A stretch of 64,000 nucleotides of DNA. Origin: Thioalkalivibrio sp. ALJ3. GTDB taxonomy: Bacteria; Pseudomonadota; Gammaproteobacteria; Ectothiorhodospirales; Ectothiorhodospiraceae. Positions within the stretch are counted from its first letter, which is position 1. Every line of letters begins with the position of its first letter. This document shows, in pieces, positions 5,843 through 58,678 of the stretch. A model generated the notes under the pieces. The model made no database searches and was not told the DNA's origin. It worked only from the letters and a program-made list of their open reading frames with translations. The DNA is taken from the NCBI RefSeq assembly GCF_000377205.1, contig NZ_KB897906.1, positions 402,272-466,271 on the forward strand, in the 5' to 3' direction. The position numbers and the translations under genes are program-made.

Positions 5843-5861
5843 TAAAGCAGCCATAAGTGAA

Positions 5862-5889: not shown

Positions 5890-5958
5890 GCTTTCGGGGC
5901 CTGCAAAATCGCCCAGCCCTGGCGCACAATGGTGAAGTACCCAAACCCGCCTCCCGCG

Positions 5959-7761: not shown

Positions 7762-7936
7762 CCATCCTCCTCCAATCGCTGCGGTTCATCTTTTTCACGA
7801 CACGACCGTGCCCGATCCGCTCGCAAAGGTCACCCATCCCGAACCCTTTTCCAATCACGCACTTCGCCCTCCGCATTGCGGAATGCTCGATCAATGACTA
7901 GAAAAAAGACGAGACCACAGAGAAGGAGTAGTTCCC

Positions 7937-8440: not shown

Positions 8441-8454
8441 CCAGCCCAGAGAAT

Positions 8455-8484
8455 AAGGCCCTTCCCGCAAGGAAGGGCCTTCTA
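8455..8484 (+). terminator. hairpin terminator between convergent genes
   Basis: AAGGCCCTTCC-CGCAA-GGAAGGGCCTT is an 11-bp perfect stem just after the GlcG-like gene. The T tract is short (TTCT). It sits between convergent genes and may serve both. Confidence 0.7.
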
Positions 8485-8516
8485 CCCACCGAGCATCACG
8501 GACCCGGTCGATCTCT

Positions 8517-9662: not shown

Positions 9663-9774
9663 CACAGCCTCCCGTTCTTTCCATGAAACCACAGCCATGC
9701 GACCGGCATGGTTTACAGGGTGTTCCCGCGATCGTACCACCCGGCGCGCCGACGGAAGCTGAACCGGAGCCGCT

Positions 9775-11265: not shown

Positions 11266-11289
11266 CGGGAATCCCGGTAAAAGAAAGCG

Positions 11290-12385
11290 TTACAGCCCAC
11301 TCTTAAGGCTAGCTTCAATGAACTGGTCCAGGTCGCCGTCGAGCACGGCCTGGGTATTGCCAACCTCCACGCCGGTGCGTAGATCCTTGATCCGCGACTG
11401 GTCGAGCACGTAGGAGCGGATCTGGCTGCCCCAGCCGATGTCGGACTTGGCGTCCTCGGCCGCCTGCTTCTCGGCATTGCGCTTCTGGATCTCCATCTCG
11501 TAGAGCTTGGCCTTCAGCTGCTTCATCGCCGTATCGCGGTTCTTGTGCTGCGAACGGTCGTTCTGGCAAGCCACCACGATGCCGGAGGGCTCGTGGGTAA
11601 TGCGGATCGCGGACTCGGTGCGGTTGACGTGCTGCCCGCCCGCCCCGGAGGCGCGGTAGGTGTCCACGCGCAGATCGGCCGGGTTGATCTCGATCTCGAA
11701 GCTGTCGTCCACCTCCGGCGAGGCGAACACCGAGGCGAACGAGGTATGCCGGCGGTTGCCCGAGTCGAACGGCGACTTGCGCACCAGGCGGTGCACACCG
11801 GTCTCGGTGCGCAACCAGCCAAAGGCGTATTCGCCCTCGATGCGCACGGTCGCGCTCTTGATGCCGGCGACCTCGCCCTCGGACAGTTCGATGATCTCGC
11901 TCTTGAAGCCGTGGGCCTCGGCCCAGCGCAGGTACATGCGCAGCAGGATGTTGGCCCAGTCCTGGGCCTCGGTCCCGCCGGAACCGGCCTGGATGTCGAG
12001 ATAGGCGTTGGCCTCGTCCATCTCGCCGGAGAACATGCGCCGGAACTCCAGCGCCTCGACCCTTGCGGTCAGGGCGGCGACGTCGGCCTCCACCGCGGAT
12101 GCCGTCTCGGCATCGTCATCGGCCTCGGCCATTTCCAGCAGGTCGCGGCTGTCGTCCAGCTGCGTGCCAATCTCGCGGATGTTGACGACGATGTTCTCGA
12201 GCTGGGCGCGTTCCTTGCCCAGCGCCTGCGCACGATCCGGGTCGTTCCAGATGTCCGGGTTTTCCAGCTCGCGCTGGACCTCTTCTAGGCGTTCTTCCTT
12301 GACCGGGTAGTCAAAGGTACCCCCTCAGGCCTTCCAAGCGGCCTTGCAAATCGTCGATCTGGGAATACAGCGGGTTGAGTTCCAT
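11290..12385 (-). CDS. prfB: peptide chain release factor 2, with programmed +1 frameshift
   Basis: The gene starts with ATG at 12385, reads 24 codons ([20 protein letters not shown]...), then meets an in-frame TGA at 12313-12311 in the context CTT TGA C. Translation must shift +1 there. The downstream frame gives 340 more residues, total 364, against 365 in E. coli RF2. The downstream part carries the RF2 anticodon-like SPF tripeptide (RKSPFDSG) and the catalytic GGQ loop ([12 protein letters not shown]). It terminates translation at UGA and UAA. A shortage of RF2 favours the frameshift, so the gene regulates its own product. It is co-transcribed with lysS. Confidence 0.97.
12310..12325 (-). 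promoter_or_regulatory. RF2 programmed +1 frameshift signal
   Basis: On the coding strand the sequence is AGGGGGTACCTTTGAC: a Shine-Dalgarno-like AGGGGG three bases before the slippery CTT, then the TGA C stop context. It differs from the E. coli prfB site only in TAC for TAT. The internal SD and the poor UGA-C stop together promote the shift when RF2 is low. Confidence 0.96.
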
Positions 12386-12484
12386 GATGCGTCCGTATCC
12401 GGTGTCCGGGTGGGCGGAAACGCCGCGCAGTATAGCACCCCTGAGCACCCATCTGTCGTGTCCGGGGCAACGGGAAACGGCCCG

Positions 12485-13432
12485 TTACAGGGCGCGCGAA
12501 CGGCGCCAGAAAGCGAAGCTGTTGCGGCGTGTCAGCACCCTTGGCGGCTCGGAGCGCGCCAGCGGATCGTGAAACTCCAGCGCTTCCAGACTTCCTCTGC
12601 GCAACAGGGGCATCAATGGCTGTACAACGTCATCGGCCAGCGACTGCATGAGCTCCGCATGCTGTTCGAGATCGCGCGCGCTGCCCAGGGCATCCAGCAC
12701 CACGACCGTATCACGCGCCATCCCTGCGGCGGACGCTGGATCCGGGGACCAGTCAAGCGCGGTCCAGTCCGCCAGAAAATGCGCGATGGGACCACCACCA
12801 CAGACTGCGCGCACCGGTGTACCCCCCTCGGGTCGCCCAGGCGACCACAGCCACAGCCCATGCACAGGGTCACGCCCGTACTGCTCGCGTGCCTGATTGA
12901 CCGGGTGCTGGAACCATGCCATCTGCAGGGCATTGCCGAGGATCTGCAAGCGTCGCGCGATGTCGCCTTCCATCGATCCGGGGCTCATGGAGCGCCCCAA
13001 GCCTTGTGAGGGGGCGATCCCGGCGCCCATCCCTTCGCCCTCCATTTCCAGGATCCACAGCCCCCCCGAGGACAGCCGCAACGTGGCGCCCACTGCATCC
13101 AGCTCCGGACGGGCGGCCTCCCACAATGCCTCGCGTTCCTCCTGGTGGACCTCGTCGACCGGGTCCGCCACCAGATCTTTCATGCCCGGGGTCAGACGCA
13201 CAGGCCTTGCCAGCCAGAGACGAGGCCCGGAATCCGGCTGCACAAACCCCAGTCGCTTTGCGAGTTGTGTTTCCCACGCATCTCCGGGGTCGGCAGCGCC
13301 GGGTACCAGCGGGCTCGCCCGTCCGAGCCAGCGGGCCAGCTTCCGGATGCCTGGAGGGTCCTCGCCGTTCTTCGGCAAGGCCACCTCGGCGCGCCGGAAA
13401 AGCCCGGGCAGCAAAAGCGTCACCCTTGCCAT
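12485..13432 (-). CDS. conserved hypothetical protein, RpfE/COG4255-like
   Basis: About 315 residues from the ATG at 13432; an in-frame ATG at 13483 with GGGGGG just before it would add 17. The start (M)ARVTLLLPGLF, the central LSSGGLWILEMEG and RRLQILGNALQMAWFQHPVN, and the late VCGGGPIAHFLADWTALD resemble the proteobacterial family that includes Xanthomonas RpfE and is distantly related to phosphoglycerate-mutase-like alkaline phosphatases. The role is unknown. No signal peptide or membrane segment is seen. It lies upstream of prfB on the same strand with a 99-bp gap. The family assignment is from memory of motifs and moderately certain. Confidence 0.6.
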   Translation of the reverse strand: MARVTLLLPGLFRRAEVALPKNGEDPPGIRKLARWLGRASPLVPGAADPGDAWETQLAKRLGFVQPDSGPRLWLARPVRLTPGMKDLVADPVDEVHQEEREALWEAARPELDAVGATLRLSSGGLWILEMEGEGMGAGIAPSQGLGRSMSPGSMEGDIARRLQILGNALQMAWFQHPVNQAREQYGRDPVHGLWLWSPGRPEGGTPVRAVCGGGPIAHFLADWTALDWSPDPASAAGMARDTVVVLDALGSARDLEQHAELMQSLADDVVQPLMPLLRRGSLEALEFHDPLARSEPPRVLTRRNSFAFWRRSRAL

Positions 13433-13598
13433 CTCAGGCCGCCCTCGCACGGCATTTGCTGCCACCCAGACGAAGCATTCCATCTCCCCCCTTTCCTGAC
13501 CGCGACCATGCTACCACCGAGCCCAATGCCGACCCGAGGAACGCCAAACGACAGTTGTGGTCTACCGTAGTAAGCAGCCCAAACGCACTGGAAGCGCC

Positions 13599-15224
13599 AT
13601 GGACGACCGCAACCTTTCCCCAACAAGCTTCCGGGCGACCACCGCGTTCCGCGGCTGGGCCGCCCCCATCATGGGACTCACGTTACTGGCCCTTGCGGCT
13701 CCCGTGGGTGCACAAGGGGCGGCTGGCCCTGCCGAGGCGCCGGATAACGGTCCCGACAACGGCTATGAAGTGGACGATTACCCGGAAGGCTCGCAGATCG
13801 ACTGGCAGTCCTGGGACAGCGCGTTGTTCGAGGAGTCGAAGGAGCGCGAGCGCCCGATCTTCTTCTATTTCCACGGGCAATGGTGCACCTGGTGCCGCGA
13901 CTTCCAGGACGAGTCACTGGAGAATCCCGATGTCGTCGACACCATTGACCGGCACTATATCCCGGTTCTGGTCGACCTCGACGAACGCGCCGATCTGTTC
14001 CGTCGCTACGGGGGCCGAGGCCTGCCCTTCGTGGTGATCGTCAACCACGAGGACGAGATGCTGACCCGCTTTACCGGGCATGTGAATCCGCGCGACCTTC
14101 AGGGCATCCTGGAGGCTCGGCGGGACATGTTCTCGGTCACCGGCCGCGAAATCACCCCGGACGACGCAGACATCAACGACCTCGACAGCTTCCGCGAGAT
14201 GCTCGACGAGGTCTACGACGGATCTGCCCATCGGCTGAGCGGCAGCGCGGCCTTCGGGACACTGAGCAAGCGCCCGCAGCCCTGGACTTACCGCTTCCTG
14301 CTCGACGAGGAGGACTGGGAAGAGCGCATGCCCGCCATGCTTGATCAGGTCGCCGCAGACCTCTACGACGGCGTGGAAGGCGGGTTCTTCTTCTTCCACG
14401 ACTGGGACCAGCGTGATCCGGTTCTGGCACTTGAGACTTCCAAGCGCCTGGATCAGAACGCCGCGTTCCTCTGGCTGTATGCCGATGCCTACGAGCGCTT
14501 CGGCAAGGAGCATCATGCCGAATTCGCTCGCGGGATCCGCGACTACCTGCGCGAGCAGCTGTGGGACGACAATCAAGCCCGCTTCGGCAACAGCCAGTAC
14601 GCGGATCGCGACTACTACCAGCTCGAACCGGAAGAACGGCTCGAGACCGACCCCCCGCGCGTGGACCGCAACACCTATGCGGACACCTCGGGCCAGGCGA
14701 TCGCCGCCCTGGCCAACATGGCGCGGGTCATGGAGGACGAGGACACCCTGGAATGGGCACGCGAGGCCATGCAGGCCCTCGAGCGCTATATGGGTACCGA
14801 GGCCGGTTTCCTGCACGGCATTACCGCCGACGGCCGCCCGGCGATGGAGGGCTACCTGCCCTCCCAGATCTGGCCGGAGATCGCCCGTCTGGAGCTGGCC
14901 CGGGCGATCGAGGCGCTGGAGGGCGAGAAGCCCGACCTGCCCGACCCGGTAGCCACCCTGGACCGCTTGGAGCCGTTCTTTGACGAAGAACTGGATGCGC
15001 ATGCCGAACGGATCGGTACCGAGCTGGAGCCGTGGTCCGAGACCCGTAGCCAGGCCGCCTTGGCCTGGTGGCTGCACCTCCTGCCGGAAGAAGCGGTGGA
15101 AGAATCCCACGTCGACCCGGAGAAGGTCCGCGCCCGCCTGCACATCGAGCCCGGCGCCGATCCCGACGATGTCGCCATCGGCTTCCAGGCCCTGCGCGCC
15201 GGCATCCCGGGACTGGGTAACTGA
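13599..15224 (+). CDS. exported thioredoxin-domain protein (DUF255/YyaL-like)
   Basis: 541 residues. A hydrophobic signal segment (about 27-42, ending VGAQGA) is followed by a thioredoxin-like domain (about 65-190) with the redox motif WCTWC at 95-99 and a cis-Pro region (GLPFVVIV). The remaining 350 residues are helical, with segments such as NTYADTSGQAIAALANMARV and EGYLPSQIWPEIARLELARA, like the alpha/alpha barrel of YyaL/DUF255 proteins. It probably acts in the periplasm in thiol handling; the substrate is unknown. The composition is very acidic (many D and E), in keeping with a halophile. The start is the ATG at 13599, chosen because the signal peptide follows. Confidence 0.7.
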   Translation: MDDRNLSPTSFRATTAFRGWAAPIMGLTLLALAAPVGAQGAAGPAEAPDNGPDNGYEVDDYPEGSQIDWQSWDSALFEESKERERPIFFYFHGQWCTWCRDFQDESLENPDVVDTIDRHYIPVLVDLDERADLFRRYGGRGLPFVVIVNHEDEMLTRFTGHVNPRDLQGILEARRDMFSVTGREITPDDADINDLDSFREMLDEVYDGSAHRLSGSAAFGTLSKRPQPWTYRFLLDEEDWEERMPAMLDQVAADLYDGVEGGFFFFHDWDQRDPVLALETSKRLDQNAAFLWLYADAYERFGKEHHAEFARGIRDYLREQLWDDNQARFGNSQYADRDYYQLEPEERLETDPPRVDRNTYADTSGQAIAALANMARVMEDEDTLEWAREAMQALERYMGTEAGFLHGITADGRPAMEGYLPSQIWPEIARLELARAIEALEGEKPDLPDPVATLDRLEPFFDEELDAHAERIGTELEPWSETRSQAALAWWLHLLPEEAVEESHVDPEKVRARLHIEPGADPDDVAIGFQALRAGIPGLGN

Positions 15225-15225
15225 C

Positions 15226-15399
15226 TCAATCGCCCCCGTCCAGGGGGCGCACGCGGACATCGGCCTCCTCGATCATCTGTGTCCCTCGCTCCGGCAAGGG
15301 TACGTCGGCGTAAGGATCCCCGTTCCAGTGCCCTTGCTGCCAACTCCAGCCAAAAAGTGCCAGATTCGCCAACAGCAGCAGCGCGACAAGCCAGCGCAT
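15226..15399 (-). CDS. small single-span membrane protein
   Basis: 57 residues: MRWLVALLLLANLALFGWSW forms one membrane helix, followed by a short acidic and polar tail ending VRVRPLDGGD. Its ATG overlaps the coaX stop (TGATG), so it is translationally coupled as the last gene of birA-coaX. It resembles the N-terminal anchor of the SPOR-type proteins that often follow coaX, but without the SPOR domain. It may be a remnant or a genuine small protein. It ends one base from the convergent thioredoxin-like gene. Confidence 0.55.
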   Translation of the reverse strand: MRWLVALLLLANLALFGWSWQQGHWNGDPYADVPLPERGTQMIEEADVRVRPLDGGD

Positions 15400-16145
15400 C
15401 ACGAGCCCTCCTCGATACGCGCGATCTGCCACAGGCCCTCAAGTACGAGGTTCTCGCGCAGTGTAAAAAACTCGGTGAGTTGTCCGGCAAGCCAGGACGC
15501 ATCCCCGCCGTGGATCCAGCAGGCGGTATCGCTGCCCAGGTGCGTGCGGGCCTCGACGATCAGGCGGTCGACGGCGCCGGACAAACCGAGCGTCAGGCCT
15601 CGTTCCAGGCCCTGTTCGCTGCCAAGCCCGGGCGTCGAGTCGAAGGTCACGGGCCAGGCACCCGGATCACGCGGGGCCACACGATCGGCCAGCCGGGCTT
15701 GCAGCGATTCCCAACCCAGCTGTCGTCCCGGCAGCAAGTACCCGCCCCGATGCCAACCCTCGGCATCCAGCAGGTCGACCGTAATCGCCGTTCCCGCATC
15801 CACGAGCACGCAGGGTCCCGCACCTTCCGCCCGCGCCGCCACCAGTGCACAGAAACGGTCCACCCCCAGCTGACCCTTGGCATAGTCACTGCGCACGCCA
15901 AAGCGCCCATCGCCCTGCGTACCCACCCAGTGGATGGGTACCGATCCCATCGCGGCCTCCAGCGCCGCCTGGCGCTCCGGGCTGCCGACCCGGGCGGCCC
16001 AGATCGCCACACAGGTGTTATTCAGCGCCTGCTCACAATCCGCGATCGCGAGGCTCGCGCCCTCTTCCAGCACATGGCCCACCCCATCGCGGCGCTGCCA
16101 CTTGATTCGGGTACTGCCAATGTCGACCACCGCACGGTCAGGCAT
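15399..16145 (-). CDS. coaX: type III pantothenate kinase
   Basis: 248 residues. It phosphorylates pantothenate in the first step of coenzyme A synthesis. The ATP-binding motif DIGSTRIKW is at residues 8-16, GVDRFCALVAARA is in the middle, and the acetate-kinase-fold motif VLVDAGTAITVDLL followed by GGYLLPG marks the CoaX family. The ATG at 16145 lies inside the end of birA (8-bp overlap), so the two genes are translationally coupled, a common pairing in gammaproteobacteria. Confidence 0.95.
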   Translation of the reverse strand: MPDRAVVDIGSTRIKWQRRDGVGHVLEEGASLAIADCEQALNNTCVAIWAARVGSPERQAALEAAMGSVPIHWVGTQGDGRFGVRSDYAKGQLGVDRFCALVAARAEGAGPCVLVDAGTAITVDLLDAEGWHRGGYLLPGRQLGWESLQARLADRVAPRDPGAWPVTFDSTPGLGSEQGLERGLTLGLSGAVDRLIVEARTHLGSDTACWIHGGDASWLAGQLTEFFTLRENLVLEGLWQIARIEEGS

Positions 16146-16974
16146 GGCCGGACCTCCTGATGGATACTTCCCCCGCGTCGAGATGATGCAGAACGCCCGT
16201 TTCGTCCTCGACGCGCAGGCGCCCCGAATCCAGGCAAACGCCCCGTGCAACGCCCGACAGGCCCGTATCCGGAACCTGGATCGAACGTCCGGCCAGCACA
16301 TCGAGCCGATCAAGATCGTCCCCCAGCGCCACCAGCCCCTGCGCCATCAGCACCGAATGCAGGCGCATCTGCCAGGTGGCCACCTCGGCCGCCAGCGCCA
16401 GCCAGTCCGGCGCTTGCCCATCTGACAGGGCTTCCAGATCGGTCACCTCTCGATCGAGGCCAAGTGCTCCGGAACCCCGCCGATTGAGTCCAATACCCAC
16501 CACCAGGCATCCGAGTCGGTCCGACCGGGGGAGTCGCTGTTCGACGAGAATACCGCCCAGCTTCGCATCGCCCACCACCACATCGTTCGGCCATTTGAGC
16601 CCGATGCCGGCGAACCCCAGTGCCTCCAGCCCCCGAATAACACCGAGGCCCACCCCGACCGGGTAAGCCGAAGGGACAGGCTGGTCAGACACAATCGGCC
16701 AGGATAATGACAGCGCAAGGCTGGCATCCGGCGAGGCCACCCATGCCCGGCCGCGGCGTCCGCGCCCGGCCATCTGCACCCGCGCCAGGCACACCCTCGG
16801 GCCGCTCTGAGTTGACTCGGACGCAAGCAGACGCGCATTGGTCGAATCCAGCCGTTCCAGCACCTCCACATAGGAAAAGGTCAGCGCGGTTCCTGCCAGG
16901 CGATCGCGCAGCAGCCCTTCCAGTTGCGCGGTTTCCGGCGCCATAATGGGATCGGTCGTCTGGGGAGCGTTCAT
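16138..16974 (-). CDS. birA: biotin--[acetyl-CoA-carboxylase] ligase, monofunctional
   Basis: 278 residues from the ATG at 16974. It attaches biotin to the carboxyl carrier protein AccB through biotinyl-AMP. The ligase domain shows LDSTNARLL (biotin and substrate positioning), the GRGRRGRAWVASPDASLALSL glycine-arginine loop, LKWPNDVVVGDAKLGGILVE and a C-terminal SH3-like domain. The N-terminal winged-helix repressor domain of E. coli BirA is absent, so this enzyme should not regulate transcription. It is divergent from the lytic transglycosylase gene at 17004 and overlaps coaX. Confidence 0.95.
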   Translation of the reverse strand: MNAPQTTDPIMAPETAQLEGLLRDRLAGTALTFSYVEVLERLDSTNARLLASESTQSGPRVCLARVQMAGRGRRGRAWVASPDASLALSLSWPIVSDQPVPSAYPVGVGLGVIRGLEALGFAGIGLKWPNDVVVGDAKLGGILVEQRLPRSDRLGCLVVGIGLNRRGSGALGLDREVTDLEALSDGQAPDWLALAAEVATWQMRLHSVLMAQGLVALGDDLDRLDVLAGRSIQVPDTGLSGVARGVCLDSGRLRVEDETGVLHHLDAGEVSIRRSGHA

Positions 16975-17003
16975 GCGGGCGTGGACGGCAAGGGGGGATT
17001 CGG

Positions 17004-17789
17004 TTGCGCAATCGTGCACATGGTAAGCGTTTCGCGGGCACGCTGCCGGCATTACTGCTGGCCGCTGGTTTCCTCGCGCCGCCCGCCCAGGCCGAGCTGT
17101 ACACCTATTACGACGCCACGGGTGCCCGTGTGATTACGGATCAGCGCCCCGAGGGCATCGAGTACGAGACCGTACCCTCGCCCCAGCGTCCCGGCACCGC
17201 CGCCAGCCCTAGCGGCCCATCCCCGCGTAGTAGCTGGTCGCCCAGCGAGATCTTCGTATTCGAGGGCCCCGACGGACAGCGCCTGGTTACCAATCAGCGC
17301 CAACAGAATGCCAACATGAACCTGATCGCCACCTACGGCCGCCCGACGGCCCAGGCACGCTGCGGCGAGCGGGCCCGCCAGGCGCTGGCGAGTGGCGGAG
17401 GCGAGTTCGCCGACCTGATCCGCGACGCCGCGGGCCACAACGGTGTGGACCCGGCCCTGGTGCAGTCGGTGATTCACGTCGAGTCCTGTTTCGATCCCGA
17501 GGCTGTCTCGCGGGTGGGCGCGCACGGCCTGATGCAGCTGATGCCGGCCACCGCAGCGGATCTGGGCGTGACCGACCGCTTCGACCCGGCCCAGAACATC
17601 CATGGCGGCACCCGCTACCTGGCCGAGATGCTGCAACGCTTCGACGGGGATCTGGATCTGGCCCTGGCCGCCTACAATGCCGGGCCCGGGGCGGTGGAGC
17701 GTCATGGCGGTGTACCCCCCTTCCCGGAAACACAGACCTACATCCAGCGGGTACGGGCCCAGTACGGCTCGGGTAACGGGATTCGCTAG
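17004..17789 (+). CDS. exported lytic transglycosylase with DUF4124 domain
   Basis: 261 residues beginning at a TTG (17004), preceded by the ribosome site AAGGGGGGA. The signal peptide runs to about residue 30 (PPAQA). A short DUF4124 domain (ELYTYYDATGARVITDQRPEG) is followed by a Slt-type lysozyme-like domain: catalytic Glu in HVESCFDPEAVSRVGAHGLMQLMP, then GGTRYLAEML and LALAAYNAGPGAVE. It would cleave peptidoglycan in the periplasm, releasing 1,6-anhydromuropeptides. It stands alone, divergent from birA. The TTG start is supported by the ribosome site and the signal peptide that begins just after it. Confidence 0.88.
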   Translation: MRNRAHGKRFAGTLPALLLAAGFLAPPAQAELYTYYDATGARVITDQRPEGIEYETVPSPQRPGTAASPSGPSPRSSWSPSEIFVFEGPDGQRLVTNQRQQNANMNLIATYGRPTAQARCGERARQALASGGGEFADLIRDAAGHNGVDPALVQSVIHVESCFDPEAVSRVGAHGLMQLMPATAADLGVTDRFDPAQNIHGGTRYLAEMLQRFDGDLDLALAAYNAGPGAVERHGGVPPFPETQTYIQRVRAQYGSGNGIR

Positions 17790-17824
17790 AAAGGCGCGGC
17801 CAGCGCCGCGCAAGTGGTGGAGAA

Positions 17825-18139
17825 TCAGCGCCGCTCGCGCCCGCAGTTCCAGCACTGGGTGAACTGCGGCTCGATCCGCTCGCCACAACGCGAGCACTTC
17901 CATTCCTTCCCGTCGTGCTCCGGCTCGCCTTCGAGGTATTCCACGATCAGCTCGCGGGCCTCCTGGGCCTGGGCCTCGTGCACCACCATCACCCGCCCCC
18001 AGCACTCGTTCGGCGGGATCTCGCCGGCGGCACCATAGAGCCCGGCCTGAGCCACATAGGCGGGGATGCCGGCTTCCTGCAGGAGATTCTCGATAAACCC
18101 GGCCATCACCGGGTCAGCTGCGGTATAAACGGTACGCAT
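17825..18139 (-). CDS. DUF2007 protein with C-terminal zinc ribbon
   Basis: 104 residues. The N-terminal half (MRTVYTAADPVMAGFIENLLQEAGIPAYV ... RVMVVHEAQAQEARELIVEYL) is the DUF2007 putative signal-transducing domain. The C-terminus holds two CxxC pairs (CSRCGERIEPQFTQCWNCG), expected to bind one zinc. This architecture is common in gammaproteobacteria and its function is unknown. It lies 35 bp from the end of the convergent transglycosylase gene; a GC-rich hairpin (GGCGCGGC-CAG-CGCCGCGC type, around 17792-17812) without T tract fills the gap. Confidence 0.82.
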   Translation of the reverse strand: MRTVYTAADPVMAGFIENLLQEAGIPAYVAQAGLYGAAGEIPPNECWGRVMVVHEAQAQEARELIVEYLEGEPEHDGKEWKCSRCGERIEPQFTQCWNCGRERR

Positions 18140-18180
18140 GCCCCGACCCTAACAGCCTGCGTCCTGACGTGCAGTCGCGC

Positions 18181-18807
18181 CTATTGCACCGTGCCCTGGT
18201 TGGCCGCCTGGAAGTACTCCATCGCCTTCTGGATGGCGTAGAACGGTGCCTCGTCCAGGGCCTCGCGGGTGTGCGGTTCGTGCATGTCGGCGTGGAACTT
18301 GCGCATCGCCAGCACATGAATCGGCAGCTCGCGCGCGAACATCGGGTTGTCGAAATTGAAGAACTGCCCGAGGCCCAGTACGAGGTTCTTGCGCTCCTCG
18401 GCCTCCAGCGCCTCCGGGCTGACCGCGACATCCGGCAGCTGGCCGGCCTGGCCGGTCACGGTCACGACGATCTCGCGATCGCCGTCGGCCGCGGCCGGGC
18501 GTTCCTCGTCACCATTGATCAGCTTCAGGTCTTCCGAGAGATCCAGGTAGCCCTTTGCCAGGATATGGCCATGCGGCTGGAACACCTTGCTGGACATGTT
18601 CACTGCCCACAGTTCCAGGGTCTCCTTCAGCTCCTGCGCTGGCTGCGTCTCGCCGAGGGCGAACAGCTGCTGGGCATAGAGGATGTCCCACACCCAGACC
18701 TGACCGTATTCCGGCAACTCTTCCTCCCCGCCCGCGGTCACGGACACGCGCTGAATTTCGGGATCGTCCGCGGCGCGGGCATGCAAGGTGATCGTGAAAC
18801 TGGCCAA
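18181..18807 (-). CDS. conserved hypothetical cytoplasmic protein
   Basis: 208 residues if started at the TTG at 18807, which has an AGGAG ribosome site 8-9 bases before it. The upstream in-frame ATG at 18840 lacks one, so I prefer the TTG. I do not recognise the family. It is acidic, has no signal peptide or membrane segment, and contains LGLGQFFNFDNPMFARELPIHVLAMRKFHADMHEPHTREAL, a helical stretch rich in His and Met. It lies 41 bp before the DUF2007 gene on the same strand and may be co-transcribed with it. Confidence 0.6.
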   Translation of the reverse strand: MASFTITLHARAADDPEIQRVSVTAGGEEELPEYGQVWVWDILYAQQLFALGETQPAQELKETLELWAVNMSSKVFQPHGHILAKGYLDLSEDLKLINGDEERPAAADGDREIVVTVTGQAGQLPDVAVSPEALEAEERKNLVLGLGQFFNFDNPMFARELPIHVLAMRKFHADMHEPHTREALDEAPFYAIQKAMEYFQAANQGTVQ

Positions 18808-18840
18808 GGCGCTTTCTCCTGCCGACGATGGACCAACCAT

Positions 18841-19270
18841 CGCGTAAATGCATTAGCGCCCCAGTATAACGAACACCCCGTACAGCACTCGGTTCTTCCA
18901 CGCGGGCCGGGGGCTTGCCCCCCGTGGCCATCTGCCCGACTCCCTGGCCATGTGCGGGCGCTCGGCATCCACGGATTGCCCGAGCCGTTCCTCAAGGCTC
19001 GCCGCGCGCCCCGCCAGAGACCCCGATACCGCGAACCAGGCCAGTGCACCATCGCAAGAAATTCGAGCTGACTGCCGGAGGGGATGAATTCAGTCTCGAC
19101 CCATTCGCCCCGAGCCGCATCGCCTGGCGGACACACATTCAGCGGCAGGCTCGCGGTCTTCACCTAGACCGTACCGGGCCCGGGCAGGTACTTCGTCACA
19201 TCGCCACTGAGGGTTCGAGCCAGCACTGCCGCCTGGTCGCGCAACGACTCCGCTTGGGGCGCAACCGGCC
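18841..19270. other. intergenic stretch without a recognisable gene
   Basis: About 430 bp between the hypothetical gene and the cynS remnant. Open frames occur on both strands, but none has a ribosome site, a domain or convincing composition. It may include the promoter of the leftward gene and decayed 5' sequence of the cynS locus. Confidence 0.5.
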
Positions 19271-19632
19271 GCCAAACTCACAGCCATCGACAAGGGCACA
19301 GATCGCCGCATCGGAGGTGGCCAGTTGTGCATTCACACGGATACCAAGGCCGAGAAGCTGAGCGGCTTCCTCGGGCTTCGGGCCCGAGGTCGCCCAGGCG
19401 CTGCAGGCGTTCCCGCACAAGCACTGAAACAAGACCCTCCCGACAGACCCGATGATCTGAGGCGATCAACGTCTATGGCGACACGATGAAGGCGCTGATC
19501 CACGAGAAATTCGGCGACGGCATCATGAGCGCGATCGACTTCACCATGGACATCGACAAGGTTGAGGACCCGAAGGGCGACCGCGTCAAGATCACCTGGA
19601 ACGGAAAGGTCCTGCCCTACAAGAGTTGGTAG
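19271..19632 (+). pseudogene. cynS: decayed cyanase (cyanate hydratase) gene
   Basis: The last 58 codons before the TAG at 19630 read [19 protein letters not shown], then IMSAIDF... and end [11 protein letters not shown]: the C-terminal dimerisation and active-site domain of cyanase, including the catalytic Ser of GIMSAIDF. Upstream the homology continues in broken frames. AQIAA-SEV-ASCAF is in one frame (from 19296) and AEKLSGFLGL in another (19349-19378). After a +1 shift comes GPEVAQALQAFPHKH, then an in-frame TGA at 19425 where TGG is expected. PTDPMI is followed by an apparent 11-bp loss that removes the YRLY of YRLYE, including the catalytic Arg. The gene cannot make active cyanase. Intact cyanase converts cyanate and bicarbonate to ammonia and CO2. 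Confidence 0.85.
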
Positions 19633-19657
19633 CGCACCTGCGCCAAGTCACAAACGA

Positions 19658-19688
19658 GAAAAGGCCTGCATCTGCAGGCCTTTTCTTT
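19658..19688. terminator. bidirectional terminator between cynS remnant and tRNA-Ala
   Basis: GAAAAGGCCTGCA-TC-TGCAGGCCTTTTC is a 13-bp perfect stem with T-rich 3' flank on both strands. It would end cynS transcription rightward and tRNA-Ala transcription leftward. Confidence 0.85.
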
Positions 19689-19695
19689 GGGAATG

Positions 19696-19771
<76 letters not shown>

Positions 19772-20142
19772 AATCAAAGCGCGCATTCTAGCAAGTCCGC
19801 GCGGACGCGGGAAGCCCGCTGACCATACCGAACTCCCGCTCTGGCGGTTTCTCGTTGCGGGGCAGGATCCCCCATCAACCCGACATCTAGGGCACAGGGC
19901 GGTCGCAGCGACCCACCGTCCTGGTGAAAACGCGAAACCGAGCACCTTTTTCAGTCGAGGCATGACGCGCAGGTGGCATTTTCATGATGCACGTCACGTC
20001 AAACCTGCTTAGACTTGCTCTAGTCTTAACGTATGTTAGAAGTACGTCGGAAATCCGTCGTATCCGCCGGTTCCTCACAGAGGCGCCCGAGCCGCATGGT
20101 CTGTCGAAACGCTTTCCTCTCCCAATTGCAGCTTGACCCCAC
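19772..20142. other. intergenic region upstream of the phosphodiesterase gene
   Basis: About 370 bp with no supportable gene. It must hold the leftward tRNA-Ala promoter and the rightward promoter of the gene at 20143. An AT-richer patch around 20010-20045 (TTGCTC, TTAACGTATGTTAG) is a possible promoter, but no clear -35/-10 pair is assigned. Confidence 0.4.
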
Positions 20143-20946
20143 ATGAGTCTGTCTGTCCGCATACTGGGCGCTAGCGGCGGGATTGGTCCCAACCGCCGCA
20201 CGACATCGATCCTGATCGACGAAGATATCCTGATCGATGCCGGCAGTGGGGTCGGCGACCTGACTCTGAGCGAATTGCAGAAGATTCGTCACGTATTTCT
20301 GACCCACTCGCATCTGGACCACATCGGTTTTCTGCCGATGCTCGCAGACATGGTGTATTCACCAGACTCGCCGCCGATCCAGATCCACGCGCTGCCGGCC
20401 ACCCTGAAGGCCCTGCGCGAGCACGTGTTCAACTGGGTGATCTGGCCCGATTTCACCTGTCTCCCAACACCCGCGCAGCCCATCCTGGAGTTCCGCCCAA
20501 TCGGGTCGGAAGAACAGGTCACCATCGGGTCGCGCGAGGTTCGCGCACTGCCGGCCCTGCATACCGTTCCCACCGTGGGTTACGGTGTGATTCATCACGA
20601 CGGCATGGGCTTTGCGTTTACCGGCGACACCACGTCGTCGGAGGCCCTTTGGGATGCCCTGAATGCGCTGCCCTATCTGGACTTGCTGATGATCGAGTCC
20701 GGGTTGCCCGACGAGATGGACAGCCTGGCCGATCTGTCCAAGCACTACACCCCACATCGGCTCTCGGACGATCTGGATGCATTGCGTCACGACCCGCGGA
20801 TCGCCATCACCCATCTCAAGCCCGGGCACGAGATGGCCATCCGCCAGCAACTCCAGCAGTCGCAATATGCCAGCCGCATGGTCTTGCTGGAGGGCGCCGA
20901 GCGTTTCGAACTGCACGCCCAGAACAGAACTCTCAAGGCGGGATAG
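20143..20946 (+). CDS. MBL-fold hydrolase, class II cyclic-nucleotide phosphodiesterase-like
   Basis: 267 residues with a metallo-beta-lactamase fold: the metal-binding THSHLDHIGFLP (HxHxDH), GDTTSSEALW (bridging Asp), and a late THLKPGHE His. The layout ILGASGGIGPNRRTTSILID at the N-terminus and HLDHI match class II 3',5'-cyclic-nucleotide phosphodiesterases (yeast PDE1, bacterial CpdP). It would therefore hydrolyse cAMP or a related cyclic nucleotide in the cytoplasm, though MBL specificities drift easily. It lies upstream of phoB with a 117-bp gap that includes a Pho box. Confidence 0.75.
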   Translation: MSLSVRILGASGGIGPNRRTTSILIDEDILIDAGSGVGDLTLSELQKIRHVFLTHSHLDHIGFLPMLADMVYSPDSPPIQIHALPATLKALREHVFNWVIWPDFTCLPTPAQPILEFRPIGSEEQVTIGSREVRALPALHTVPTVGYGVIHHDGMGFAFTGDTTSSEALWDALNALPYLDLLMIESGLPDEMDSLADLSKHYTPHRLSDDLDALRHDPRIAITHLKPGHEMAIRQQLQQSQYASRMVLLEGAERFELHAQNRTLKAG

Positions 20947-21000
20947 GTCCTCATAGGTCCTCAGCCGCGATGCCCCGGCCTGGTGCCGGCCATTCGCTCG

Positions 21001-21018
21001 CCGTCACACAGCTGTAAC
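21001..21018 (+). promoter_or_regulatory. Pho box upstream of phoB
   Basis: CCGTCAC (21001-21007) and CTGTAAC (21012-21018) are two 7-bp PhoB half-sites spaced 11 bp start to start, matching CTGTCAT-N4-CTGTCAT. A possible -10 (TATCTAAT) follows around 21028. PhoB autoregulation of phoBR is the expected consequence. Confidence 0.75.
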
Positions 21019-21063
21019 ATCCCTGCTATCTAATGCAGGGCATCCTGAACTCTGGAATGGGTT

Positions 21064-21753
21064 ATGGCTGTGAAGATTCTGCTGGTCGAGGATGACACCG
21101 CAATCCGCGAAATGCTCCAGCTGCCGCTGCACAAGGCCGGATACGCGGTGCGCGAAGCGGGTGATGTCCGCACCGCCAAGGGCCTGCTATTGGGAGATCC
21201 TCCAGACCTGGTCCTGCTCGACTGGATGCTACCGGACACCAGCGGTCTCGACTGGGCGCGCACGCTGAAGGCCAGCCCGATCACCAAGGACATCCCGATC
21301 ATCATGCTGACCGCCCGCGGCGAGGAAGAAGATCGTGTGCGCGGGCTGGATGTGGGTGCGGACGACTACGTGACCAAACCGTTCTCGCCGCGCGAACTGG
21401 TTGCCCGTATCAAGGCCGTGTTGCGGCGTACCGCGCCGATCACCAGCGAAGAACCGGTGGAGGTCGAGGGTCTGCGCCTGGACCCAGTTTCACATCGTGT
21501 CAGTGGTAACGGCGAGGCCCTTTCAATGGGCCCGACCGAATACAACCTCCTGCACTTCTTCATGACCCACCAGGACCGCGTATTCACCCGCGGCCAGCTA
21601 CTGGACCAGGTCTGGGGCACCAACGTCTACGTCGAGGAACGCACTGTGGACGTGCATATCCGGCGCCTGCGCAAGGCGCTGGCGCTGACCAGGCATGACC
21701 ACCTCGTGCAAACCGTACGCGGATCGGGGTACCGTTTCTCGCAGACTCCCTGA
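21064..21753 (+). CDS. phoB: phosphate regulon response regulator PhoB
   Basis: 229 residues, the length of E. coli PhoB. The receiver domain (1-120) has the acidic pair ED at 9-10, phospho-acceptor Asp53 in [13 protein letters not shown], Thr in MLTARGEE and Lys in [10 protein letters not shown]. The C-terminal OmpR/PhoB winged helix (about 130-229) ends [11 protein letters not shown]. It activates phosphate-starvation genes by binding Pho boxes, several of which occur in this window. It is followed after 45 bp by its kinase gene phoR. Confidence 0.97.
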
Positions 21754-21798
21754 CCGCGGCCGGCGCCGCGGTCTCCCATCACCCCACTCGGTCGTCCG

Positions 21799-23121
21799 AT
21801 GCAATCACGCAACCCCTGGCCTGGTGTCATCGCGGGAACCCTGCTGGTCGGCGTCCCGATCGCGCTGCTTGGCTGGAGCATGGGGCAGTTCTGGGCCACG
21901 ATTGCCTTTCTGCTGGGGGCGGCGCTGTTCTGGAACCTCTCGCATCTGTTGTTGCTGGAGCGCTGGCTGCGCCAGGGTGGGCGCAGCGAACCGCCGGATG
22001 TGCGCGGACTTTGGGGGCTGGCCTTCGACCATCTTTACCGCCGCCGGCGCCGTCACGAACACCGCGTCCATCGGCTGCGCCAATACCTCGAACGCTACCG
22101 TGACTCGGCGCGGGCGATGCCGGACGCAGTCGTCGTGCTGAATGACGATCTGCGCATCGAATGGCTGAACGAAATGGCCACGCAGCTGCTGGGCCTGAAC
22201 TGGCCGGAGGACGAGGGCCAGCGCATCACCCATCTGCTGCGTAATCCAGCGTTCATCGCGTTCATGGAGCGTGCGCGCACCACGCCGGGCAGCGTGACCA
22301 CGCCCTCCCCGCTGTACGACGACCAGCAACTGGAATTCCGGCTGGTCCCCTATGGCGATGCGCAGTACCTGCTGCTGGCACGGGACACCACCCACCTGCA
22401 CCGGCTGGAAGTAATGCGGCGTGACTTCATCGCAAATGTCTCGCACGAGCTGCGCACGCCGCTGACCGTACTGTACGGCGTTGTGGAGACGCTGGAGGAC
22501 GAACTGGCCGACCAGCCGGACAAGGTACGCTCGGTCCAGTTGCTTCGCGAACAGTCCGAACGCATGAAGTTGCTGGTCGACGACTTGCTGACCCTCTCAC
22601 GTCTGGAGACCGGTAGCCCGCAGGGACCACCACAATGGGTCGACGTCGAGGCCATGCTGGACACGCTGAAAGGCGAGGCGGAACTGCTCTCCGGCGACCA
22701 GCGCCATCGTATCGAGATCCACGCGCAGGCCGGACTCGAGTTGCAGGGGACCGAGAGCGAACTGCGCTCGGCCTTCGCCAACCTGTTGTTCAATGCCGTC
22801 AAGTACACGCCTTCGGGCACCCGCATCGAGATCCGCTGGCGGTCCGACCCGGACGGTGCGCGTCTGAGCATGATCGACGAAGGACCGGGGATCGCCCGCC
22901 ACCACCTGCACCGCCTGACCGAACGCTTCTACCGGGTGGACGCCGGCCGCGACCAGCGCCGCGGCGGGACCGGGCTCGGATTGGCCATCGTCAAGCATGT
23001 GCTCGCCCGCCATGGCGGCCATCTGGAGATCGACAGCCAGCTCGGTCGCGGCACACGTTTCACCTGCCTGTTCCCTCTCTCGATCACCCGCACCAAACCG
23101 GCCGAAGCCGCCAGCGGCTGA
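21799..23121 (+). CDS. phoR: phosphate regulon sensor histidine kinase PhoR
   Basis: 440 residues. Two N-terminal membrane segments (about 9-27 and 32-50) lead to an Arg-rich linker, a PAS domain (about 90-195, DAVVVLNDDLRIEWLNEMA), a HisKA domain with the H-box NVSHELRTPLT (His216) and an HATPase domain with NLLFNAVKYTPSG (N box), IDEGPGIA (G1) and GGTGLGLAIVK (G2). It phosphorylates PhoB when the Pst transporter signals phosphate limitation through PhoU. There is no large periplasmic sensor loop, as is usual for PhoR. Confidence 0.96.
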   Translation: MQSRNPWPGVIAGTLLVGVPIALLGWSMGQFWATIAFLLGAALFWNLSHLLLLERWLRQGGRSEPPDVRGLWGLAFDHLYRRRRRHEHRVHRLRQYLERYRDSARAMPDAVVVLNDDLRIEWLNEMATQLLGLNWPEDEGQRITHLLRNPAFIAFMERARTTPGSVTTPSPLYDDQQLEFRLVPYGDAQYLLLARDTTHLHRLEVMRRDFIANVSHELRTPLTVLYGVVETLEDELADQPDKVRSVQLLREQSERMKLLVDDLLTLSRLETGSPQGPPQWVDVEAMLDTLKGEAELLSGDQRHRIEIHAQAGLELQGTESELRSAFANLLFNAVKYTPSGTRIEIRWRSDPDGARLSMIDEGPGIARHHLHRLTERFYRVDAGRDQRRGGTGLGLAIVKHVLARHGGHLEIDSQLGRGTRFTCLFPLSITRTKPAEAASG

Positions 23122-23130
23122 GTCCGCACG

Positions 23131-23170
23131 ATGTCACATGGCTGTCACACGCCCGTCACGGGAGCGTCAA
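23131..23170 (+). promoter_or_regulatory. array of PhoB half-sites upstream of pstS
   Basis: ATGTCAC (23131), CTGTCAC (23142), CCGTCAC (23153) and the weaker GCGTCAA (23164) recur with exact 11-bp spacing, so two PhoB dimers could bind in tandem. A CATAAT -10 element follows at about 23181, placing the array at the -35 position. The pstS start is at 23245. Confidence 0.88.
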
Positions 23171-23244
23171 GCCGGCTGCGCATAATCCCCCACCAAGGTC
23201 GCTCGAGGCGTCCTTGCGAGAATTCCATTCAAGGGGAGATTCCC

Positions 23245-24219
23245 ATGTTGTTGAAGCGCAGCATTCTGGCCCTGGCCACCGCCACTGCACTGGCCGTTAC
23301 GCCGTTTACCGCCTCCGCCGAAGTCGATGCCGACATCCCGGCCTACGAGGCGGTTTCCGGGATTTCCGGCAACCTGTCAAGCATCGGCTCCGACACCCTG
23401 AACAACCTGATGACGCTGTGGGCCGAGGAGTTCCAGAATTTCTACCCGAACGTCAACGTCCAGATCCAGGGCGCCGGCACCTCCACAGCACCGCCGGCCC
23501 TGACCGAGGGCACCGCCGACTTCGGCCCGATGTCGCGCATGCCGCGTGACAGCGAACACGCCGAGTTCGAGCAGCGCCACGGCTACGAGATGACCGCCGT
23601 CCCGGTCGCGATCGACACCATCGCCGTGTACGTGAATCGCGACAACCCGATCGAGGGCCTGACGCTCGAGCAGACCGACGCGATCTTCTCCTCCACCCGT
23701 CGCTGCGGTGGCGCCGAGGACATCACCCGCTGGGGCCAAGTCGGCCTGGACGGTTCCTGGAACAACCGCGACATCACGCTCTACAGCCGTAACGCGGTCT
23801 CCGGCACCTATGGCTTCTTCCGCCAGCACGCCCTGTGCGACGGTGACTTCAAGGATTCGGTCAACGAACAGCCCGGTTCCGCCTCCGTGGTCCAGGGTGT
23901 CTCCGAATCGCTGAACGGCATCGGCTACTCCGGCATCGGCTACATGACCTCCGGCGTGCGCGCCGTCCCGCTGGGTCAAAACGAAGGCGAGTACTACGAA
24001 CCGAACGCCGAAAATGCCTCCACCGGCGATTACCCGCTGGCCCGCTTCCTGTACGTGATGGTCAACAAGCACCCGGAAGACGGTCTGACCCCACGCGCGG
24101 CCGAGTTCCTGAAGATGGTGCTGTCGAAGGAAGGCCAGGAAGTCGTGGTGCGTGACGGGTTCATCCCGCTACCGGCCGCCGTGGCCGAACGCGAGCGCAA
24201 GAACCTCGGCCTGGAATAA
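23245..24219 (+). CDS. pstS: periplasmic phosphate-binding protein PstS
   Basis: 324 residues with a Sec signal peptide (cleavage after about TASA, residue 24) and no lipobox. The mature protein shows the phosphate-binding motifs of Pst[33 protein letters not shown] and [12 protein letters not shown]. It captures phosphate for PstCAB. The ATG at 23245 follows the strong ribosome site AAGGGGAG. A terminator hairpin after it and a separate Pho box before pstC suggest that pstS can be transcribed alone and at a higher level than the permease genes. Confidence 0.96.
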
Positions 24220-24254
24220 TCCAGGTGGCGGGCCGGCCATCTACGGATGGCCCG

Positions 24255-24286
24255 AACCGGGTTCCTCGCGGGGCCCGGTTTTCTTG
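24255..24286 (+). terminator. terminator after pstS
   Basis: AACCGGG ... CCCGGTT followed by TTCTTG, with a second GC-rich hairpin just upstream (CGGGCC ... GGCCCG, 24229-24254). Both lie between pstS and the pstC promoter region. Confidence 0.65.
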
Positions 24287-24338
24287 TGTCCGCCTCATGC
24301 AGTCCGCCTGCTCGACCCGCAATACAGCGTTCAACGGT

Positions 24339-24367
24339 CCGTCACATGGCTGTCACGTTTCTGTCAC
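24339..24367 (+). promoter_or_regulatory. three PhoB half-sites upstream of pstC
   Basis: CCGTCAC (24339), CTGTCAC (24350) and CTGTCAC (24361) are spaced by exactly 11 bp. They lie 61-89 bp before the pstC start and give pstCAB-phoU its own PhoB-dependent promoter, independent of pstS. Confidence 0.88.
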
Positions 24368-24427
24368 GAAGCGGCCGTAGCATGCCGGCCAGTTCCATCC
24401 TACACCTGCCGCATCAGGGGACCCTGA

Positions 24428-26698
24428 ATGTCCAGCCTCACCGCTACCACGACGCTCGGGCGCTTCCAGCGCTGGCGCCGCGCCAAGGACCGTACCGCCC
24501 GTTATACCATCGGCTTTTTCGGTGTGGCCGTGATTGGCGCCCTGACCCTGATGTTCGTGTACCTGGCCAGCGAGACGCTGCCCATGTTCCAGGGGGCGAC
24601 GCTGGAGCCACGCACCGAATACGCGGCCCCTGGCGGCGCCGACACCCGGACCATCCACCTCGCCGTGAACCGCCATCGCGAGATGGCGGTGCGCCTGACC
24701 GAGGACCGGCGCGCTCTGTTCTTCCGCCCCTACAGCGGCGAGATCGTGAAAGAACAGTCACTGCCGATCCCCGAGGATGCGAAGGTCACCACCTTCAGCG
24801 CCGCCGAGCCACGCACGCGCCTGGTGGCCGCGGGCCTGGACAACGGGCAGGTACTTGCCATCGAGTACGAATACAACGAGCGCTTCAGCCCCGAAGGCCG
24901 TCTGTACGACCCGGCGCTGGTCTACCCGCTAGGAGATGAAGACTCCGCGCTGCTGGATGTGGATGACGACGGCCGCGCGATTTCGGTGGTTGGCGTGCAG
25001 CGTGGCTCCAGCGGCATCCGCGTCGCCGCCGCGACGGAAGATGGCGATCTGAAGCTGGTGCGCTTCGAGAAACGCACCTCGATGATGACCGGCGAAACCG
25101 AGGTCCAACGGTCGGCCTACGACCTGCCCTCACTCCCGGATGGCGCAACGCCGACCCGCATCCTGCTCGATATCACGGGCCGCCACATGCTGGTGGGCGA
25201 CGATCAGGGGCAGCTGCACTTCTTCGACATCAACAACCCCGCCCGCGCCAGCCTGGTCGACAGCAAGCGTGTGATCGGCGGCGACGCGGCCGAGGTGACC
25301 TCGCTGGAATATCTGCTGGGCACGGTATCCATCATCGTCGGTGGGTCCGACGGGACGGTCACGCAGTACATGCTGGTGCGCGACGACGACAACGTAAACC
25401 GCATCACCCGCGTCCGCGATTTCCCGTCGCATGCCGGTTCGATCCGCAACATCCAGCCGGAGTACATCCGCAAGGGCTTCCTGACCGCCGACGACCGCGG
25501 CGAGGTCAAGGTCCACTACTCCACCTCGCAGCGGACCCTGATCGAACGCCAGATCACCGACCAGCCGCTGCACCGGGTTTATGTCGACCCGCGCAACCGC
25601 CTGCTGATCGGCATCGACGACCATGAGACCTGGCACCTGCAGGACCTGTCCAACCCGCACCCGGAGGTCTCCTTCCACGTGCTGTGGCAGAAGGTCTGGT
25701 ACGAGGGCCGCTCCGGGGGTGACTACGTCTGGCAGTCGTCCTCGGCCACCGACGAGTTCGAACCGAAGTTCTCGCTGGTACCCCTCACCATCGGCACCAT
25801 CAAGGCCGCGTTCTACGCAATGCTGTTCGCCACTCCGCTGGCAATCATGGGCGCGATCTACAGCGCCTATTTCATGTCGCGGCGCATGCGCAGCATCACC
25901 AAGCCCTCGATCGAGCTGATGGAGGCGCTGCCGACGGTCATCCTCGGCTTCCTGGCCGGATTGTGGCTGGCCCCGTTCATCGAGGCCAATCTGCCGGCGA
26001 TCGCCAGCATCCTGATCCTGATGCCGCTGGGGATGCTGGTCGCTGCGTTCCTATGGACCCGTGTGCTGCCAGAGAATCTGCGCAATCTCGTGCCAGCCGG
26101 CTGGGAGGCCGCCATCCTGATCCCGGTGATCCTGGCCATCGGCTGGCTCTCCGTCTCCATGAGCCCGTTGATCGAGGTCTGGATGTTCGGTGGCGATGCC
26201 CGCCAGTGGCTGACCAACCAGGGCATCACCTACGACCAGCGCAACGCGCTCGTCATCGGCATCGCGATGGGCTTCGCCGTAATCCCGACCATCTACTCGA
26301 TCTCCGAGGACGCGGTCTTCAATGTGCCCAGGCACCTGACCCAGGGCTCGCTGGCGCTGGGCGCGACGCCATGGCAGACGGTCGTGCGCGTGGTGCTACT
26401 GACCGCCAGCCCCGGGATCTTCTCCGCAGTGATGATCGGCTTCGGCCGCGCGGTGGGCGAGACCATGATCGTACTGATGGCGACCGGCAACTCGCCGGTG
26501 GTCAACTTCAACATCTTCGAGGGCATGCGCACGCTCTCCGCGAATATCGCGGTGGAGATGCCGGAGGCCGCCGTCGGCAGCACCCACTTCCGCATCCTGT
26601 TCCTGGCCGCACTGGTCCTGTTCGCGCTGACCTTTGCGGTGAACACGGTCGCCGAGATCGTGCGCCAGCGGCTGCGCCAGAAATACAGCTCCCTTTGA
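24428..26698 (+). CDS. pstC: phosphate ABC transporter permease PstC, enlarged form
   Basis: 756 residues, more than twice E. coli PstC (319). A first membrane helix (about 27-50) is followed by a roughly 390-residue insertion (about 55-445) made of short beta-rich repeats (for example LLDITGRHMLVGDDQGQLHFFDI and GTVSIIVGGSDGTVTQYM), which looks like a beta-propeller and should lie in the periplasm. The C-terminal 300 residues are the permease domain, with the MetI-type loop ([25 protein letters not shown], then GRAVGETMIV). It forms the channel with PstA. Enlarged PstC proteins occur in other gammaproteobacteria; the role of the insertion is not known. Confidence 0.93.
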   Translation: MSSLTATTTLGRFQRWRRAKDRTARYTIGFFGVAVIGALTLMFVYLASETLPMFQGATLEPRTEYAAPGGADTRTIHLAVNRHREMAVRLTEDRRALFFRPYSGEIVKEQSLPIPEDAKVTTFSAAEPRTRLVAAGLDNGQVLAIEYEYNERFSPEGRLYDPALVYPLGDEDSALLDVDDDGRAISVVGVQRGSSGIRVAAATEDGDLKLVRFEKRTSMMTGETEVQRSAYDLPSLPDGATPTRILLDITGRHMLVGDDQGQLHFFDINNPARASLVDSKRVIGGDAAEVTSLEYLLGTVSIIVGGSDGTVTQYMLVRDDDNVNRITRVRDFPSHAGSIRNIQPEYIRKGFLTADDRGEVKVHYSTSQRTLIERQITDQPLHRVYVDPRNRLLIGIDDHETWHLQDLSNPHPEVSFHVLWQKVWYEGRSGGDYVWQSSSATDEFEPKFSLVPLTIGTIKAAFYAMLFATPLAIMGAIYSAYFMSRRMRSITKPSIELMEALPTVILGFLAGLWLAPFIEANLPAIASILILMPLGMLVAAFLWTRVLPENLRNLVPAGWEAAILIPVILAIGWLSVSMSPLIEVWMFGGDARQWLTNQGITYDQRNALVIGIAMGFAVIPTIYSISEDAVFNVPRHLTQGSLALGATPWQTVVRVVLLTASPGIFSAVMIGFGRAVGETMIVLMATGNSPVVNFNIFEGMRTLSANIAVEMPEAAVGSTHFRILFLAALVLFALTFAVNTVAEIVRQRLRQKYSSL

Positions 26699-26708
26699 GG
26701 CATACCCG

Positions 26709-28376: not shown

Positions 28377-28427
28377 GGTCCGTCATGCGCAGACTTTCAA
28401 GCCCAGCAGCGACGCAGTCAGTCCCGG

Positions 28428-58319: not shown

Positions 58320-58387
58320 CTATGGGATGTCGGATATCTGAAGAGGGGCGCCGAGGTCGCGAGGGACGACCGTATGGCGAGACGCTA

Positions 58388-58669: not shown

Positions 58670-58678
58670 TAGGGCGTG

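Follow-up and report, generated by a model that had tools for sequence, protein, structure and literature searches.

The window analysed here is a stretch of 64,000 nucleotides from the genome G000 of Thioalkalivibrio, a genus of sulfur bacteria from soda lakes. At the locus under study the ends of two genes on opposite strands, a rubredoxin/FAD reductase and the cyanase gene cynS, meet at a common hexamer and are followed by a terminator-like repeat and a tRNA-Ala gene (Table 1). The genome of the window is a draft assembly of 2.63 Mb in 12 contigs and is 99.95% complete. It was compared within a set of 30 Thioalkalivibrio genomes (G000 and 29 other congeners), of which 23 are at least 90% complete (three with thiocyanate dehydrogenase, TcDH, and 20 without it). 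Trees place G000, G020, G025, G029 and G001 in a tight group within the genus, and the last four are referred to as its close relatives.

Table 1. Features of the locus in the window and of the loci in close relatives that bear on it
Feature	Location	Strand	Basis
Rubredoxin/FAD reductase relic, C-terminal part from about codon 340 of 477	18940..19352	-	alignment to G029, G001, G025
Deletion junction, 6-bp AGGCCG common to both ancestral ends	19347..19352	+	BLAST overlap and alignment
cynS pseudogene, codons 51-148 and stop, codons 1-50 deleted	19347..19632	+	profile search, tblastn, alignment to relatives
1-bp insertion, placement ambiguous	19371..19376	+	alignment to G029, G001, G025
In-frame TGA replacing TGG (Trp)	19425..19427	+	alignment to G029, G001, G025
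11-bp deletion site, Tyr-Arg-Phe-Tyr codons removed	19458..19459	+	alignment to relatives
Open C-terminal segment EAINVYGD...KVLPYKSW*, 57 codons (19459-19629) and stop	19459..19632	+	read from sequence
Terminator-like inverted repeat with T run, downstream of cynS	19660..19688	+	read directly; also in G029 and G001 (alignment)
tRNA-Ala (cgc), neighbour of the cynS locus	19696..19771	-	ARAGORN
Cyanate-cluster ABC ATPase relic in G020, cynS gone	L161 (G020:C61), ~7200-7560	reverse complement	
805-aa gene in G020	L161, 7643-10060	reverse complement	
805-aa gene in G025	L189, 16807-19224	reverse complement	
TcDH gene of G020	L222 (G020:C48), 9790-11436		

The cyanase remnant

The plus-strand remnant is a decayed cyanase gene, as a sequence-only reading of the window had recognised. 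The profile PF02560 matches window positions 19450-19623 with E 4.7e-29 and 101.7 bits (cut-off 25), covers profile positions 11-68 of 69, and includes one TGA that the search read through. With 16 cyanases of congeners or the outgroup as tblastn queries, the C-terminal piece at ~19459-19629 was matched by all 16, and a second piece in a different frame, at ~19374-19457, was matched by 15, two of them weak (L024, E 0.013; L025, E 0.002). Judged on the sequence, cyanase similarity in two frames of the window is far beyond chance, and similarity upstream of 19456, for which the sequence-only reading had proposed a tblastn check, is present. Intact orthologues of the pseudogene occupy the syntenic place in G029, G001 and G025.

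The relic retains 98 of 148 codons, about two thirds of the gene. The C-terminal third is still open, as had been described, but the relic is larger than this part. Its left limit, earlier put at 19271, is displaced to the junction. Survival of codons 1-50 out of frame at 19271-19346 was considered and rejected; the antisense end of another gene aligns there. The frame changes earlier placed upstream of the open segment therefore hold for the 1-bp insertion and the 11-bp deletion and not for 19271-19346, because that stretch is minus-strand reductase sequence. A single open frame of ~150 codons is absent at the locus: the first 50 codons are gone, and an insertion of one base, a TGA and a loss of 11 bases follow.

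The lesions were read against the three closest intact copies, those of G029, G001 and G025. The TGG-to-TGA change and the 11-bp deletion that takes the Arg segment, both proposed before, are seen in this alignment, and the codon after the TGA has changed from GAC to AAC. Three residues of cyanase, Arg96, Glu99 and Ser122, are taken here to be catalytic. Alignment to the E. coli cyanase (1dw9) identifies the Arg lost through the 11-bp deletion as residue 96, and the equivalents of Glu99 and Ser122 are retained. The relic is similar to CynS (cyanate hydratase, PF02560) in that its surviving segment aligns to the catalytic domain with these two residues in place. It differs from the E. coli enzyme in having no N-terminal domain, in the deletion of the Arg96 equivalent, and in carrying a stop and two frame changes. 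The relic is not a working enzyme. Sequencing error might in principle account for the single-base lesions, on which neither the 12-kb deletion described below nor the truncation of the two genes depends.

The sequence-only reading had also suggested looking for a second intact cynS. A PF02560 search of the 99.95%-complete genome, with all three candidates scored, found no second cyanase in G000. A copy elsewhere in the genome was rejected, since the search gave only the match in the window.

The 12-kb deletion and the cluster in close relatives

On the left of the junction, window positions 17800-19350 match, at 87-89% and on the same strand, a place ~12 kb upstream of cynS in G029, G001 and G025. 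On the right, window 19347-28377 is collinear with G001 at ~90%, and 19374-28388 with G029 at 89%, with no break; upstream of 19347 the collinear alignment with these two genomes ends. The left and right BLAST alignments overlap by the six bases of the hexamer in G001 and G025, and the right alignment to G029 begins later. Calculated from the coordinates, the window lacks 12,053 bp relative to G001, 12,056 bp relative to G029 and 12,049 bp relative to G025. This deletion, and not the frameshifts to which the decay had been attributed, is the chief lesion; the sequence-only reading did not contain it. The reductase stump is the last 29% of its gene. It carries two 1-bp deletions (~19053 and ~19257, placement approximate) and a nonsense change from CAG to TAG at plus-strand positions 19164-19166, and it has lost its stop codon. 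The intact reductase of the relatives was identified by the Pfam families Rubredoxin, Pyr_redox_2 and Rbx_binding.

In G029, the corresponding interval starts with most of the reductase gene on the minus strand, then an acyl-CoA-dehydrogenase-like gene and an OsmC-like gene. Next come an ABC ATPase, a binding protein that weakly matches a Tat signal, a permease and a NifA-like sigma-54 activator, and then a second binding protein, an NtrB-type permease, an NtrCD-type ATPase and the first 50 codons of cynS. Against NCBIfam cut-offs of 209 and 292 bits, the NtrB-type permease and the NtrCD-type ATPase of G029 score 222 and 322 bits, respectively; the first ABC set falls under the cut-offs. NCBIfam labels the second set as nitrate transporters, and cyanate is suggested as its substrate because it adjoins cynS. 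G025 alone has an extra small gene after the reductase, presumably DUF302-like. We take the cluster in G029, G001 and G025 to be a cynABDS or nrtABCD-type cluster for uptake of cyanate or nitrate. The window shares with it the locus beside tRNA-Ala; unlike G029, where NtrB- and NtrCD-type subunits lie directly upstream of cynS, it has none of the transporter and regulator genes.

Parts of this arrangement recur in the genus. A copy of the second binding protein, 71-100% identical, lies within ~4 kb of cynS in 15 of the 18 cynS-bearing congeners, and cynS is within ~3 kb of tRNA-Ala in nine of these 18. In G000 and G020, the second binding protein is represented by a single 37%-identical paralogue, which is also present in many congeners.

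Relaxed constraint in both stumps

A substitution was counted as a unique change if the window alone differed and G029, G001 and G025 agreed at the site. Of the 12 unique changes in the cynS stump, 8 fall on codon position 1 or 2, as do 27 of the 50 in the reductase stump. Taken together, this is 35 of 62 in the stumps, whereas five intact neighbour genes have 56 of 228 (Fisher p ~5e-6), a comparison that is conservative because the neighbour at 20143-20946 has a high count at position 1 (24 of 72 changes). Selection is relaxed in both stumps. The number of unique changes per site is higher in the reductase stump (50/369) than in the cynS stump (12/258; p ~2e-4), which is not predicted by a single simultaneous loss. 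Constraint on the reductase may have been weaker before the deletion, or the gene may already have been broken by then. The deletion is left without a date because the substitution counts of the two stumps disagree.

These data bear on the possibility that the cluster is intact in the true genome and the junction a misassembly. The assembly is a draft in 12 contigs, but the junction sits inside a contig of 484,658 bases, both stumps have several lesions and raised substitution at positions 1 and 2, the second binding protein occurs in the genome only as the 37% paralogue, and no copy of cynS was found on another contig. Such an artefact is very improbable. It is equally hard to credit that the C-terminal piece of cynS still functions as a small protein or a regulatory RNA. 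Its 57 codons remain open; against this, it is without the N-terminal domain and the Arg96 equivalent, and two thirds of the unique substitutions of the whole cynS stump (8 of 12) affect position 1 or 2.

The locus is very probably a dead remnant, in which a deletion of ~12.05 kb between two AGGCCG hexamers fused the stumps of the reductase gene and cynS, which then drifted. The ancestor would have had the complete cluster beside tRNA-Ala, with the reductase, the acyl-CoA-dehydrogenase-like and OsmC genes, two ABC sets of nitrate/cyanate type, the NifA-like activator and cynS. A single deletion, which probably arose by slippage or end-joining at the short homology, would have taken everything from the inside of the reductase gene through codon 50 of cynS, and uptake, regulation and the start of the cyanase would have been removed together. 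Both stumps would then have gained stops and frameshifts without selection. The gene content indicates a cell that should no longer be able to import and hydrolyse cyanate by this route; loss of the hydrolysing route is supported because cynS is decayed and the search gave no second copy. The sequence-only reading had offered a change in nitrogen or sulfur metabolism; one in nitrogen metabolism, through loss of nitrate/cyanate-type uptake together with cyanase, is plausible.

TcDH, cyanase and the relic in G020

Among the 29 other congeners, 18 have cynS. With G000 scored as a genome without the gene, the count for genomes at least 90% complete is 16 of 23. A protein search found TcDH in three of the 30 genomes, G009, G011 and G020, and the search over the order (47 genomes) found the same three only. 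All three are without cynS. TcDH was first located through a Tat motif printed in the available part of PMC5328954. The motif pattern matches 3 of the 30 genomes and the reversed control pattern 5 of the 30, so the pattern alone proves nothing and the protein search is the evidence. The TcDH of G020 was confirmed by its match to the solved enzyme 5f75, with E 0 across 548 residues. The nitrile-hydratase-type thiocyanate hydrolase (PF02979), which would mark thiocyanate use by the carbonyl sulfide pathway, was matched in 0 of the 30 genomes and in 0 of 14 controls; because no control matched, this result is not taken to show that the enzyme is absent.

According to the available portions of PMC5744179 and PMC6504805, TcDH-bearing, thiocyanate-oxidising Thioalkalivibrio lack or suppress cyanase, and avoidance of ammonia poisoning was suggested as the reason. 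This is opposite to the sequence-only reading, in which relatives were said to use cyanase during thiocyanate or cyanate use. Its link between the loss and thiocyanate use is also not borne out in G000, where the protein search gave 0 matches to TcDH. As far as the accessible text of PMC5328954, PMC5744179 and PMC6504805 goes, the window resembles TcDH-bearing Thioalkalivibrio (T. paradoxus, T. thiocyanoxidans and others) in having no working cyanase; unlike them, G000 has no TcDH that we found and still carries the remains of the cyanase gene.

Loss of the cluster might nevertheless have been favoured. If ammonia released from cyanate is harmful at high pH, strains that gain TcDH would drop cyanase, and the lineage of G000 would have lost TcDH later. 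The ammonia idea itself is stated in the part of PMC5744179 available. Among genomes at least 90% complete, cynS occurs in 0 of 3 with TcDH and 16 of 20 without it (Fisher p 0.02, kinship ignored). This association is suggestive only; the rpoB tree pairs G009 with G011, which leaves no more than two independent TcDH cases behind the p value. The close relative G020 combines TcDH with a remnant of this cluster, and in two overlapping data sets it is sister to G000 (58 and 63% support). The accessible text of PMC6382920 implies that T. nitratis includes strains with and without TcDH, which perhaps is readily gained or lost. On the other side, a sister relation of G000 and G020 is not recovered in the rpoB tree or the 29-kb tree, and four genomes at least 90% complete (G000, G015, G017 and G027) have neither gene. 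With 20 kb around the G020 TcDH as query, and 40 of 70 candidate places scored, G000 gave a 1.5-kb stretch at 74% and short matches, and no TcDH relic among them. The 1.5-kb match corresponds to a stretch located before TcDH, probably fccAB by analogy with the layout given in the available part of PMC5328954. A favoured loss in G000 is unlikely. Neutral loss is the simpler reading because no TcDH was found in G000, and, as far as a single genome can show, the deletion would have been tolerated rather than selected.

In G020, the place of cynS is occupied by a damaged stretch of the last ABC ATPase of the cluster with internal deletions, followed by an 805-aa gene and tRNA-Ala. A single loss shared by G000 and G020 would agree with their grouping at 58 and 63% in the two overlapping data sets, but the two genomes do not fall together in the rpoB tree or the 29-kb tree. 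Moreover, G020 retains part of the last ABC ATPase, which G000 lacks, and G000 retains the end of the reductase gene and about two thirds of cynS, both absent in G020. A shared event is therefore quite improbable; because of this reciprocal retention of cluster parts the two deletions are taken as independent, neither being derived from the other. An earlier inactivating mutation may be common to both genomes.

The relationships among the close relatives depend on the data used. The placement of G000 among G020, G025, G029 and G001 differs between rpoB, the 5.6-kb flank (with and without rpoB) and a 29-kb alignment, with support at the critical nodes of 0.30-0.77 for rpoB, 58 and 63 for the 5.6-kb flank sets and 76 for the 29-kb alignment. 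Of 37 one-kb tiles, the latter comprises the 29 for which each of the four close relatives gave a hit longer than 850 bases. The rpoB gene was found in 28 of the 30 genomes, and its tree has 27 rows, in which a partial copy of G017 was kept and a partial copy of G013 and a second, partial copy of G007 were dropped. The 805-aa gene between the cynS place and tRNA-Ala occurs in G025 and G020 but is missing from G000, G029 and G001; its product, assigned by eye, is a putative periplasmic binding domain joined to a histidine kinase. It is not used as proof of kinship because it conflicts with some of the trees.

The stretch around the TcDH of G020 (L222, ~5,900-19,900) has short matches only in G000, G029, G001 and G025 (40 candidate places scored per genome), and its left end (2-865) matches G001 at 92%. 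From this pattern of matches, TcDH and the genes that follow it are probably an acquired island. It is conceivable, though unlikely, that favoured loss of the cluster, driven by the harm done by ammonia at high pH, has recurred in haloalkaliphilic Thioalkalivibrio after gain of TcDH, in which case the relics of G020 and the window would be two independent records of it and the lineage of G000 would since have become TcDH-free.

As a single feature, a pseudogene formed by deletion is common and ordinary. The value of the locus lies in two independent relics, in G000 and in the TcDH-bearing G020, beside an ammonia-avoidance idea published in the sources cited above, as far as their accessible text shows. 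In the literature outside subscription journals, and in the portions of it available, we found no description of cyanate-cluster relics in Thioalkalivibrio. The idea can now be tested on strain collections, by asking whether TcDH was gained before or after cynS was lost and how fit TcDH-bearing strains are when given cyanase.

Elsewhere in the window, a 287-bp dispersed palindromic element occurs twice (5558-5844 and 58386-58672), and the two copies are 98% identical. It has 42 matches in G000 and 7-51 in 15 other congeners, and none in the remaining 14 of the 30 genomes. Its ends fold onto one another, with a DNA fold z-score of -9.4, and it is presumably a non-autonomous element of the MITE type.
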